IMG/VR virus record: IMGVR_UViG_3300025645_000075
Location: 1-61,965 of that record
Strand: one strand, 5' to 3'
From: a virus
DNA: 61,965 bases
The translations under genes were made by a program, and so were the position numbers. Under the pieces are notes generated by a model, which was not told the DNA's origin, searched no databases, and saw only the letters and a program-made list of their open reading frames with translations. This document shows, piece by piece, positions 57,311 through 61,965 of the stretch. Position 1 is the stretch's first letter; the number at the start of each line of letters is the position of its first letter.

Positions 57311-57318
57311 TATTTATA
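57311..57318 (-). promoter_or_regulatory. Late promoter TATAAATA before gp48
   Basis: Exact octamer on the minus strand, 45 nt upstream of the gp48 ATG, sharing its last base with the gp4 start codon. Confidence 0.75.
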
Positions 57319-57824
57319 TGAAAACTTACAAAGGAAAATACAAAATCCGGAATGAATCCAAGTATCTTGGTGATCCCAAGAATGTGGTGTATCGTTCGGG
57401 ATGGGAAAAGGCTGTCATGATATGGTGTGACGACAATCCCAATGTGGTTGGTTGGGTAAGTGAAGAAGTTATTATACCATATATTTGCGAGACTGACAAG
57501 CGTCCCCATCGTTATTTCATGGACTTTATGGTCAAGTACAAGGATGGACGCACTGTACTGATCGAAGTCAAACCGCATAAAGAGACAATCAAACCCAAGA
57601 CCGGACAAGGAAGACCTCGAAGACAAGTACTTAGTGAAACATTGACATATATTAAAAACATAAGTAAGTGGACAGCGACCGAGAAGTATGTTGCTGATAG
57701 AGGATGGCACTTTGAAATATGGGATGAACACAAACTAAGGGCTATGGGGATACTACCCAAACCATTAGGAAAGAAACCAATTAAACCATTGAAGAAAATG
57801 AAACCGTATAAGAGAAAGAAGTGA
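57318..57824 (+). CDS. 4: gp4 head completion protein (PD-(D/E)XK nuclease fold)
   Basis: 168 aa (T4: 150). Head completion factor. SKYLGDPKNVVYRSGWEKAVMIWCDDNP (T4: SKYRGDPKKITYRSNWEKFFFEWLDKNP) and the nuclease-like RYFMDFMV..VLIEVKP with D69, E83 and K85 intact. A basic tail follows. The start matches T4, but no Shine-Dalgarno precedes this ATG (tttatATG context). First gene of the plus-strand group. Confidence 0.92.
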   Translation: MKTYKGKYKIRNESKYLGDPKNVVYRSGWEKAVMIWCDDNPNVVGWVSEEVIIPYICETDKRPHRYFMDFMVKYKDGRTVLIEVKPHKETIKPKTGQGRPRRQVLSETLTYIKNISKWTATEKYVADRGWHFEIWDEHKLRAMGILPKPLGKKPIKPLKKMKPYKRKK

Positions 57825-58423
57825 TTGACAAGAAAGTATATTTTATAGGAATGAACAAGATTGCAACCACGTCATTCCACGAGTTATTTAAAGCATCAGG
57901 ATACCGGTCATGGCATTATTCCTGCATGGACGAAGTTACTATGGAACCGTTGGTACTCGCACAACAGATGGGACAGAATGTTGATGAAAATAAATATGTG
58001 ATGAAAAGTATTGATCATGCACAGGTCTATAGTGATTTGTTTTTCCATCGTGATTATGCGTGGGTAGATGGCGTCAAGTGGTTCGACAAACTCTACAATA
58101 ATAATCCAAATGCTTATTTTATATTACAGACTCGTGATATGGAAGACTGGTTGGACAGTAAACGTAGACACAAGGACGGTGATTATATGAGACGTTGTTG
58201 TGAATATCATGACCTAGAGCCAGATGAGATGTTGGAGTGGTTTCGCAATGATCGAGAAGAACATGAAGATAATGTTCGTTCTTTTTTTACAAACAAGAAG
58301 TATGCAAATTTCCTTGAATGGAACCTCAGTACCGACCACATATCGAAGTTGATCAATTTCGTCAAACCAGACTTTATACTCAAAGAAAAAGATTGGGGGC
58401 GTCATGGCAAACTATATAAATAA
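57821..58423 (+). CDS. Sulfotransferase-like protein
   Basis: 200 aa. N-terminal VYFIGMNKIATTSFHELF fits the 5'-phosphosulfate-binding loop of sulfotransferases (xxGxxKxGTTSL), and YFILQTRDMEDWLDSKRRH fits the 3'-phosphate-binding R...S motif. It would use PAPS to sulfate a substrate, perhaps a phage or host surface sugar. GTG start overlapping the gp4 stop; the strand before the loop requires this start, not the internal ATG. No other PAPS gene is in the window. Confidence 0.65.
   Translation: MIDKKVYFIGMNKIATTSFHELFKASGYRSWHYSCMDEVTMEPLVLAQQMGQNVDENKYVMKSIDHAQVYSDLFFHRDYAWVDGVKWFDKLYNNNPNAYFILQTRDMEDWLDSKRRHKDGDYMRRCCEYHDLEPDEMLEWFRNDREEHEDNVRSFFTNKKYANFLEWNLSTDHISKLINFVKPDFILKEKDWGRHGKLYK
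58415..58422 (+). promoter_or_regulatory. Late promoter TATAAATA, plus strand
   Basis: Exact octamer in the 3' end of the sulfotransferase-like gene, 28 nt upstream of the gp2-like ATG at 58450; the only exact plus-strand late promoter I found. Confidence 0.75.
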
Positions 58424-58449: not shown

Positions 58450-59034
58450 ATGTCTGACATATTCAATAGATTAGAACGACAGGCATTCCGTGCGGGTATT
58501 ACACCTCGGACGAAGGAAAGTCGTGCGTGGTTTCTGAAGAAAGCACAGAATATGCGGGGTATCAATCGAGAGTCTTTGATGAAGGAAGAACCCATCAAGG
58601 CAAGATCTAAACAGATCATTGGTGGTATGTTCATGTTTACCTATGATCCTAAACATAAAGACAAACTACCATACTATGATGCATTTCCATTGGTGATTGT
58701 TCTTGGGCCTGCGAAGGGTGGATTCTTAGGATTGAATCTACACTATCTGCCACCCAAGTTGAGGATGCAGTTCTTTGCGAACATCATGGATATCCAAGGT
58801 AGTAAGTTGAGTGAAGATGATAAGTTTTCTTTGACATATAGAATGTTAAAGAAATCTTCGAATCTGAGATACTTCAAACCATGTGTTAAACATTATTTGA
58901 ATTCTCAGGTTACCAGTCGTTTTGCGGAAGTACCTGCACCAGAATGGGAGATTGCAATCTTTCTGCCAACCGCACAGTTCCGCAAACGAAACAGTTATAA
59001 GGTTCATTACGATAGTAGGCAGATGATACGATGA
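58450..59034 (+). CDS. gp2-like DNA end protector candidate
   Basis: 194 aa. Blocks GGMFMFTYDPKHKDKLPYYDAFPLVIVLGPAKGGFLGLNLHYLPPKLRMQFF, YFKPCVKHYL and EVPAPEWEIAIFLPTAQFRK. I recall this pattern in T4-like phages annotated as DNA end protector (gp2), and gp2 is a neighbour of gp4 in T4; another virion-assembly role is possible. Good AGGAAG ribosome-binding site. The end overlaps the gp54 ATG by 4 nt. Confidence 0.55.
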   Translation: MSDIFNRLERQAFRAGITPRTKESRAWFLKKAQNMRGINRESLMKEEPIKARSKQIIGGMFMFTYDPKHKDKLPYYDAFPLVIVLGPAKGGFLGLNLHYLPPKLRMQFFANIMDIQGSKLSEDDKFSLTYRMLKKSSNLRYFKPCVKHYLNSQVTSRFAEVPAPEWEIAIFLPTAQFRKRNSYKVHYDSRQMIR

Positions 59035-59788: not shown

Positions 59789-60493
59789 ATGGCATTACCT
59801 AAGTTAAATACATCACCGCAGTATTCATGTAAGATTCCTTCTACTAAAGAAGTTGTTTCTTATAGACCTTACTTGGTCAAAGAAGAAAAGGTATTGATGA
59901 TCGCATTTGAAACTGGCGATCAAAAAGAAGCACTGAATGCAATTGTCAACACATTAGACGCTTGTATTCAAAATGAAATCGATGTTAATGCATTGACAAC
60001 ATTCGATATTGAATATCTGTTTACTCAGATACGATCGAAGTCTGTGGGCGAATCCGCGACAGTGTTGTTGAAATGTTCTAGTTGTGATCATAAGAACGAA
60101 AGATCTATCGATATTGGTTCAATTGATGTGTCTACTAGTGAACTCAGTAACGTCATAGAATTGACAGACAGTGTTAGTGTTGAAATGAAATATCCATCGT
60201 ATGTTGATATCCAGTCAAGTGATTTGACCGGAGATGAACTTACAGTAGGTTTTAACTTGGTTGCCACATGTATCAATGCAATCTTGACCGAAGAAGAAAG
60301 AGTCTCTTCCAGTGACACATCGAAGGAAGAACTAATGGATTTCATCGAGTCTATGACCCAAGGACAATTCAGGAAGTTAGGTGAATTTCTTGAAGCAATG
60401 CCCGCAATGATACACACCGAGACATTTGCGTGTGAAGGTTGTGGGGAACAGAACAGTGTGACTTTGAAAGGTATGCAGGATTTTTTATCCTAA
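59789..60493 (+). CDS. 26: gp26-like baseplate hub / tail assembly protein
   Basis: 234 aa (T4: 208), of the T4_baseplate (PF12322-type) family as I recall. N-terminus LPKLNTSPQYSCKIPSTKEVVSYRPYLVKEEKVLMIAFE. Two CxxC pairs (C96/C99, C215/C218) suggest a zinc site. The last codons GAT TTT TTA TCC TAA contain the -1 slippery heptamer T TTT TTA (60481-60487) just before the stop, and the -1 frame continues to 60678 (next entry). SD GGAG. Immediately upstream of the tape-measure gene. Confidence 0.82.
   Translation: MALPKLNTSPQYSCKIPSTKEVVSYRPYLVKEEKVLMIAFETGDQKEALNAIVNTLDACIQNEIDVNALTTFDIEYLFTQIRSKSVGESATVLLKCSSCDHKNERSIDIGSIDVSTSELSNVIELTDSVSVEMKYPSYVDIQSSDLTGDELTVGFNLVATCINAILTEEERVSSSDTSKEELMDFIESMTQGQFRKLGEFLEAMPAMIHTETFACEGCGEQNSVTLKGMQDFLS
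60481..60487 (+). promoter_or_regulatory. Candidate -1 frameshift heptamer T TTT TTA
   Basis: Zero-frame codons read GA[T TTT TTA]. A 6-bp stem AGTGAA/TTCACT (60513-60518 with 60537-60542) lies 25 nt downstream, a weak stimulator candidate. Confidence 0.7.
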
Positions 60494-60678
60494 ACCTTTC
60501 TCATGATAGTCTAGTGAATTATTATAAAACTAATTTTTCACTGATACAACATCATAGTTATAGTTTGACTGAAATTGAAATGATGTTGCCGTGGGAGAGG
60601 GAGATCTACGTTGCTATGTTAGTTGAATATGTTAAAGAAGAAAACGATCGTATTAAACAAGAACAGATGAGAAACTAA
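60487..60678 (+). CDS. C-terminal extension of gp26 by -1 frameshift
   Basis: 63 codons read in the -1 frame after the slippery site: ILNLSHDSLVNYYKTNFSLIQHHSYSLTEIEMMLPWEREIYVAMLVEYVKEENDRIKQEQMRN. No ATG with a Shine-Dalgarno opens this frame before the conserved-looking block SLTEIEMMLPWEREIYVAML, so frameshifting best explains its expression; a fusion of 296 aa results. Position corresponds to T4 gene 51 / the lambda T extension. GTG at 60514 is an alternative restart without Shine-Dalgarno. Confidence 0.65.
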   Translation: MLNLSHDSLVNYYKTNFSLIQHHSYSLTEIEMMLPWEREIYVAMLVEYVKEENDRIKQEQMRN

Positions 60679-60679
60679 A

Positions 60680-61965
60680 ATGGCAGATGCTTTACTACAA
60701 ACCTCGATTCAACTTCTAAGAGAAGAGAATGCGAAACAATCTGATCAGGTCATCAAGAACACTGCAACAACAAGTGAAGGTGTTGATGACCTAAAGAAAA
60801 CTATGAAGGATCTTCTGGGCGAGTTCAGAGGTCAGGCTGGTGACAGAGAAGAGGCCCGTCGAGATTCTGGTAGAACATCTCCTACAGGTGGAGGAACCGG
60901 GCCCGAACGTCCAGATCTCGATAAGAAGACTGGCGGTATCTTAGATTTACTCATCGGTATTCCTACCATGGTTCTTGGTTTTGCTAAAGGTCTTGCGATA
61001 GGATGGATGAAGGCTATTACAGACACCGCAAAACTTATAAAGAATGTTATATCAGGAACCTTCAAGACTATTCTGTCGGGTGTCAAGTTTCTATTACGTC
61101 CTATTACAAACTTCTTCGCTCCATTAGGAAAAAAAATTTCCGATCTTGTTAAACTTGCAAGTGGTAATATCGTGAAGAAATTGAAGGATGTTTTCAAACC
61201 GGTTACCGACTTTGCTTCTAGTGTGGTCAAGGTCTTTAAAGACTTGGGTACTGGCATCAAATCACTTGTCACTGATATTAAGATAGGGGTGAAGTTATAT
61301 GTTGATGGTTTTAAGAATTTTGTAAAACCTATCACTAACGCCTTCAGTAATATATCTAATGCATTCAAAGCAGGTATGAATGGTGTCAAGGGACTATCAC
61401 AATCTGTAACCGGTACTTTCCGTTCTCTGAATATGTTCGAAAAGACATTCAGAGGTATGGGTAAAATCTTTACCGATTCTGTAAAGTTCGTCAAGAGTGT
61501 CGGTACATCTATCACAACTGGATTCCAGACAGTTATTGGAGCATTCAGATCAGCAGGTCAATCATTTGCTAGTGTGGGTAAATTCGCAGGAGGTATCAAA
61601 GATTCCTTTAGTAAGATAGTAAAACCAATGAAGGATGTCGTCGCGTACATGCGAGGAATTGCGCCTAATATCTTCAAAGTGTTTGGTGCACTAGGTAGAT
61701 TCTTTGGTTGGCCACTCACAATCGCTATTGGTTTGTACGAAGGTATTAAAGCATCTCTGAGTAAATTCAAGTCAGGTGATATCATCGGTGGCGTATACGC
61801 ATTCATGACCGGTGCGATCAATGGTGCAGTATTGAGTTTAGTAGATCTCCTAAAAGACGGTATCTCTTGGATATCAGGTATGTTGGGTTTCGAAAACTTC
61901 TCTACTTTCTTGGACAGTTTCTCGTTCTCAGAGATGTTCAGTGAAGTTATGATGAATATGGAGTC
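60680..61965 (+). CDS. 29: Tape measure / gp29-like tail length protein, 5' part
   Basis: At least 428 aa, cut by the right edge. Coiled-coil N-terminus (LLQTSIQLLREENAKQSDQVIKN, VDDLKKTMKDLL), a Pro/Gly linker, then repeated hydrophobic-amphipathic segments (GGILDLLIGIPTMVLGFAKGLAIGW, FKTILSGVKFLLRPITNFF). This composition fits gp29, the hub-bound tail-length determinant. ATG follows the extension stop by one base (TAAAATG). T4 order 26-51-27-28-29 supports the placement. Confidence 0.75.
   Translation, partial: MADALLQTSIQLLREENAKQSDQVIKNTATTSEGVDDLKKTMKDLLGEFRGQAGDREEARRDSGRTSPTGGGTGPERPDLDKKTGGILDLLIGIPTMVLGFAKGLAIGWMKAITDTAKLIKNVISGTFKTILSGVKFLLRPITNFFAPLGKKISDLVKLASGNIVKKLKDVFKPVTDFASSVVKVFKDLGTGIKSLVTDIKIGVKLYVDGFKNFVKPITNAFSNISNAFKAGMNGVKGLSQSVTGTFRSLNMFEKTFRGMGKIFTDSVKFVKSVGTSITTGFQTVIGAFRSAGQSFASVGKFAGGIKDSFSKIVKPMKDVVAYMRGIAPNIFKVFGALGRFFGWPLTIAIGLYEGIKASLSKFKSGDIIGGVYAFMTGAINGAVLSLVDLLKDGISWISGMLGFENFSTFLDSFSFSEMFSEVMMNME

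Follow-up and report, generated by a model that had tools for sequence, protein, structure and literature searches.

A conserved -1 frame and slippery heptamer at the end of gp26 point to short and long tail-assembly chaperones in a T4-like phage

In phage lambda, a gene located just upstream of the tape measure gene gives rise to two products, gpG and gpGT, by a -1 frameshift on the slippery site G GGA AAG, and the extension found in the longer product has no start of its own. For T4-like phages, the abstract of the work of Vladimirov and co-workers reportedly describes frameshifting as conserved in several groups, and is said to name T4 genes 26 and 51. Poly-T signals for a -1 shift in the TAC-N genes of T4-like phages are ascribed to Vladimirov, Gautam and Davidson (2022) in a citing passage (PMC12846349), whereas some T4-like phages have, in place of the frameshift, one gene for the short chaperone and another, fused, for the long one (Vladimirov et al., 2022, as cited in PMC10885494); the original article (Virology 566:9-15) is represented here by its title and by such citing passages. 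In T4, gp26 and gp51 are listed as hub assembly chaperones, gp51 being essential but of unknown function (PMC3004832). A related arrangement is reported for other phage families, the Vandenendeviridae and Andersonviridae, in which the TAC locus, as described for Pseudomonas phage Adele in a passage of PMC12846349, shows a conserved -1 frame and a poly-T sequence, GTTTTT, at the end of TAC-N; it is by these junction features that it can be likened to the locus described here. In the first-pass annotation of our locus, such a frameshift was not known to have been described for gp26 of T4-like phages. As far as the citing passages go, it had been (Vladimirov et al., 2022), and the present locus is a further example of an already published frameshifted chaperone.

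The window, i.e., the whole stretch of 61,965 nucleotides that was analysed (IMG/VR record IMGVR_UViG_3300025645_000075), has the following features around the junction:

59789..60493, + strand: gp26, predicted short form (TAC-N), 234 aa; matches PF12322 and phrog_150
60481..60487, + strand: slippery heptamer T TTT TTA, present in the sequence and conserved among loci as in-frame TTTTTTN
60487..60678, + strand: -1 frame extension, gp51 homologue, 63 codons and stop, predicted C-terminal part of TAC-NC; matches phrog_634, shows substitutions biased to third positions and aligns with the C-terminus of T4 gp51
60491..60493, + strand: gp26 stop codon, TAA, one codon past the heptamer
60512..60532, + strand: possible downstream stem, weak and picked by eye, with arms at 60512-60515 and 60529-60532
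60680..61963, + strand: tape measure protein, 5' part, continuing beyond the end of the window; assigned by the position of its ATG and by matches to PHROG tape-measure families

The 3' end of gp26 reads GAT TTT TTA TCC TAA, with the TTT (60482-60484) and TTA (60485-60487) codons of the heptamer in the gp26 frame and followed by TCC and the stop. In the -1 frame, the ATC at 60487 is the first of 63 sense codons (60487-60675), which end at a TAA (60676-60678); from stop to stop, this ORF spans 60436-60678. The ATG of the tape measure gene lies one base beyond the extension stop, with the two overlapping ORFs directly upstream of it. A slip on the heptamer would join 233 residues of gp26 to the 63 encoded by the extension, for a predicted product of 296 aa. 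The canonical heptamer, the 63-codon open frame reaching to one base before the tape measure ATG and the length of the fusion had all been proposed in the first-pass annotation, and each agrees with the sequence of the window. As for gpG/gpGT, a -1 frameshift pair would thus precede the tape measure, but with T TTT TTA in place of the lambda G GGA AAG.

gp26 matches the Pfam family PF12322 (T4_baseplate) with an E value of 1.5e-56 and a score of 192 bits (cut-off 24.5), over positions 2-218 of a profile of 219, and the PHROG family phrog_150 (1.3e-59, 203 bits) over positions 5-232 of 282. The extension matches phrog_634, annotated as a baseplate hub assembly catalyst (1.3e-26, 94.2 bits), and also phrog_150 (5.9e-06), at positions 235-278, the stretch directly after that matched by gp26. 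Neither gp26 nor the extension found a match in NCBIfam at E values up to 1, no lambda-type TAC family was listed for either in Pfam, again at E values up to 1, and a PDB sequence search with a gp26 profile returned two matches, both unrelated (best E value, 0.21). The best match of the downstream gene to PHROG tape-measure families has an E value of 1.6e-11. Upstream of gp26, one gene encodes a tail tube protein (phrog_45, 1.3e-30) and another (58450-59034) encodes a DNA end protector (phrog_429, 4.2e-52). Further upstream, a sulfotransferase-like gene (57821-58423, + strand; PF17784, 3.1e-08), with no PHROG match at E values up to 0.01, is flanked by a head-closure gene (57318-57824; phrog_218, 2.9e-55) and by the DNA end protector gene.

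The open -1 frame is more than a chance occurrence, as argued by the match to phrog_634, by the rarity of such frames in shuffled sequence (an open frame of 62 codons arose in 0.275% of 20,000 base shuffles of the region 60491-60690) and by the pattern of substitutions. In comparisons with eight chosen relatives, third positions in the -1 frame accounted for over half of the substitutions (for example, 7, 4 and 22 at the three positions for L005). This bias also speaks against the idea that the extension is a decayed, untranslated remnant of gp51, as does the fact that no -1-frame stop separates the heptamer from the gp51 domain in any of the 328 loci having both; we regard decay as having next to no probability.

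The first-pass annotation had called for a comparison of homologous gp26 genes. The loci gathered first, 161 in number, were the window and 160 from IMG/VR; many were near-identical or came from one contig retrieved twice. All of them carry gp51 in the -1 frame, and the junctions printed for this set have TTTTTT shortly before the gp26 stop. The full set comprised 358 loci (342 from IMG/VR, 15 from named phages and the window), with six added IMG/VR searches that began from the gp26 of other phages, and with T4 and a duplicate of the window locus excluded; the peptides used in the database searches lay entirely inside gp26 or the extension, and none spanned the heptamer. Four loci without a gp26 stop (L300, L321, L322 and L337) were set aside, leaving 354. 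Of these, 345 have gp51 in the -1 frame and not one has it in the 0 or +1 frame; in the other nine it was undetected. An in-frame TTTTTTN was present within the last 20 codons of gp26 in 333 of the 354 loci, representing 181 distinct junctions of 105 nt, and lay 0 or 1 codon ahead of the stop in 320 of them. Diverse gp26 genes have thus kept both the -1 frame and the heptamer.

Because the junction is a homopolymer, loss or gain of a T in the run during sequencing or assembly could in principle have split a gp26-gp51 gene that is really in one frame, and the run of L344 is indeed shorter by one T than that of L343 or L171. The same frame relation is however found in the 345 loci, from many assemblies and isolates, and the heptamers end in C (179), A (81), T (62) or G (11) and precede any of three stop codons. 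On account of this breadth, we rejected the error explanation, to which we give almost no weight.

Clustering at 80% protein identity reduced the set to 94 representatives, 89 of which carry the heptamer. Given the residues encoded by its three codons, the codon usage of each gene would lead to the heptamer in 28.4 of these 89 representatives, versus the 89 observed, a comparison for which the representatives had been selected as carrying the heptamer (it is absent from just 5 of the 94) and in which, owing to shared ancestry, they are not independent. Of 20,869 other codon positions in the same genes, 10 have the six-T pattern in frame.

A more serious alternative makes the extension a small gene in its own right, gp51, initiated separately and translationally coupled at the gp26 stop. 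Small coding sequences are indeed annotated here in P-SSM2, ValKK3, phiN3, RL2RES, Yut2 and K476, and those of ValKK3, RL2RES, Yut2 and K476 overlap the gp26 stop by one base. In the window, however, the only start codons of the -1 frame between its upstream stop and the 14th codon past the slip are a TTG at 60439 and a GTG at 60514, both lacking an SD-like 4-mer, and the first ATG lies inside the conserved domain (EIEMM); the extension is therefore, as the first-pass annotation held, without a plausible start of its own. We searched the 89 representatives for ATG, GTG or TTG over the same range. No start codon was found in 39 of them, whereas 50 had at least one, of which 23 had an ATG. Close to the slip, at most six codons away, ATG was present in 18 representatives and GTG or TTG in seven others. 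An SD-like 4-mer preceded a start in four of the 89 (L107, L171, L279 and L306). A conserved initiation codon with its SD sequence, which the first-pass annotation had set against a frameshift, is accordingly missing from the window and from these 39 representatives, even if start codons close to the slip do occur in a part of the family. Among 21 loci near the window that were picked by hand, 12 shared a TTG at codon 9, four, including the window with its TTG, had a start at codon -14, and seven had no start in the tested range; one had a start with an SD-like 4-mer.

The annotated starts also disagree with each other and cut into the domain (34 aa in C48C1, 44 aa in Mosig), and no gene is annotated at the extension in Sf-CH1b and AsFcp_2. 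Four of the 18 representatives with an ATG close to the slip, ValKK3, phiN3, RL2RES and Yut2, have an annotated gp51 or hypothetical protein that starts at or near this ATG; they retain the heptamer all the same, and it is possible that these and similar loci produce free gp51 alongside the fusion. For the window and the loci near it, separate initiation is unlikely, and as an account of the extension a separate, coupled gene appears highly improbable. The shortened gp51 annotations beside a slippery junction lie at L163:1579-1683 (34 aa) and L164:1555-1689 (44 aa), and the loci with the annotation missing are L170 and L173.

A -1 frameshift yielding a short and a long chaperone can be compared with the situation in T4. 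T4 gp26, of 208 aa, matches PF12322 at 8.8e-64, and T4 gp51, of 249 aa, does so at 3.9e-52. In the same frame as its PF12322 match, gp51 matches phrog_634 (1.2e-23, 84.6 bits); its residues 3-248 span positions 13-280 of phrog_150, and the extension of the window can be aligned to its C-terminal end (YSL..I..MIP.ER). From these matches and this alignment, T4 gp51 corresponds to a long form encoded in one frame and T4 gp26 to the short form, both products having homologues in the window. The suggestion that the extension occupies the position of gp51 is supported insofar as the extension is a gp51 homologue by its match to phrog_634, but T4 gp51 is more than its equivalent, since it also contains a gp26-like domain. 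In contrast to the window, with the gp26 and gp51 parts in two frames, T4 has separate and divergently oriented genes 26 and 51; the end of T4 gp26 lacks TTTTTTN and its -1 frame enters gene 25. This fits the published view, as far as it is given by the citing passages, that T4 has two genes instead of a frameshift. In addition, T4 gp26 (L161:3803-4429) has a weak match (9.4e-4) to phrog_1140, to which T4 gp28 belongs, and gp28 may be a third relative.

Homologues without the slippery site do exist (21 of 354), but they belong to distant groups, save for one locus with a shortened T run. They consist of 17 loci of the BSP101 type (L174, L175 and L345-L359; BSP101 belongs to the Ackermannviridae), of Vibrio phages D510 and K476 (L167 and L172), of Campylobacter phage WX1 (L177) and of L344; L167, L172, L174, L175 and L177 are the five representatives without the heptamer. 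L344, which resembles L343 and L171 around the junction, may reflect a sequencing error or a real variant. The loci of the BSP101 type all lack TTTTTTN, but in each of the 17 a weak gp51-like match persists in the -1 frame, and the canonical heptamer is therefore not universal. Unless translation starts inside the domain, these loci may use an unusual -1 shift near the conserved ATTTTCATTTAATTTTTGAAATTGATTTA stretch, and the gene family may form a series from the canonical slip, as in the window, through a non-canonical slip to two separate genes, as in T4. We consider these two proposals, taken together, as speculative and rather doubtful; in all 17 loci the first ATG, GTG or TTG of the -1 frame belongs to a GTG-ATG pair that lies 11-12 codons downstream of the stop of gp26, and this shared pair makes a non-canonical slip less likely.

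Signals that could stimulate the slip were looked for on both sides of the heptamer. Right after it, the predicted folding energy dips, with a mean z of -1.71 against mononucleotide shuffles (40 of 89 representatives below -2, compared with five of 89 at one upstream control site) and of -1.17 against dinucleotide shuffles (27% of the 89 below -2), the mean z at 19 other offsets ranging from -0.94 to +0.15 in the latter case. For the clade of the window (36 sequences), RNAalifold predicted no consensus structure downstream. A stem of six pairs picked by eye, four of which form in the window, had a covariation score of 0.216 in the same sequences that had served for choosing it, whereas sliding gave values of up to 0.095 and shuffling of up to 0.103; one pair shows compensatory changes in 16 of the 36 sequences, and the two doubly changed pairs are not above shuffles (mean 2.3). 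This stem is suggestive only. For a P-SSM2-like set (47 sequences), RNAalifold gave ten pairs, with a double change confined to one pair in a single sequence; this hairpin of the P-SSM2-like phages (set A2; L165:1504-1534) begins 5 nt past the heptamer and is well kept, with almost no compensatory change. Upstream, the energy of a duplex with the anti-SD sequence was -6.1, compared with -4.9 in synonymous shuffles, and was the lower of the two in 65 of the 89 representatives; the corresponding values at control sites were -1.9 and -2.4. The longest match, however, was almost the same as in shuffles (4.19 and 4.08; higher in 40 of 89). An SD-like upstream stimulator is likewise suggestive only. 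Given one covarying pair, the lack of a consensus structure in the window clade and the mixed SD-like statistics, a stimulator is not established.

An AlphaFold2 model of gp26, built from 40 aligned gp26 proteins, reached a pLDDT of 88.2 and a pTM of 0.81. Foldseek found no match to it in the PDB at an E value of 0.001; the HK97 tail assembly chaperone, 2ob9, was at rank 8 (E value 1.0, probability 0.69). VIA re-alignment of the model, with matches over its N-terminal 90 or so residues, placed 3fgx first (Z 8.0, 85 aligned residues, rmsd 3.8) and 2ob9 second, with a Z of 7.4, below 8 (85 aligned, rmsd 3.8, model residues 1-86), followed by third and fourth rows at 5.4 and 3.1. The predicted likeness of gp26 to the HK97 chaperone is thus middling, and the guidance that comes with VIA does not take such a match as proof. 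In BFVD, the named top matches of the model are mostly baseplate hub proteins from other phages.

The anatomy of the junction, the homology of the extension to gp51, the conservation of the frame and heptamer and the existence in T4 of a long form encoded in one frame lead us to conclude that a -1 frameshift very probably yields a short (TAC-N) and a long (TAC-NC) tail-assembly chaperone at this locus. The last three also support the analogy with lambda gpG/gpGT drawn in the first-pass annotation. We infer the slippage itself, its rate and the mode of action of the chaperones as follows. Most ribosomes on gp26 would terminate at the TAA at 60491, producing the short form; a minority would slip one base back on T TTT TTA, two tRNAs re-pairing on TTT TTT, and would continue through 60675 to make the 296-aa long form with its C-terminal gp51 domain. 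By analogy with gpG/gpGT, the role of the gp26 part would be to coat the tape measure protein, and that of the gp51 domain to recruit components of the tail tube or hub.

A joined gp26-gp51 product is not annotated in any of the 15 named non-T4 phage regions that were inspected. What is listed as a small separate gp51 gene, or is unlisted, in several records of cyanophages and pelagiphages is probably the end of a frameshifted protein. To the published examples we add counts across uncultured phages and the exception formed by the loci of the BSP101 type. The finding is thus of relevance both to the annotation of T4-like phages and to the understanding of their tail assembly.
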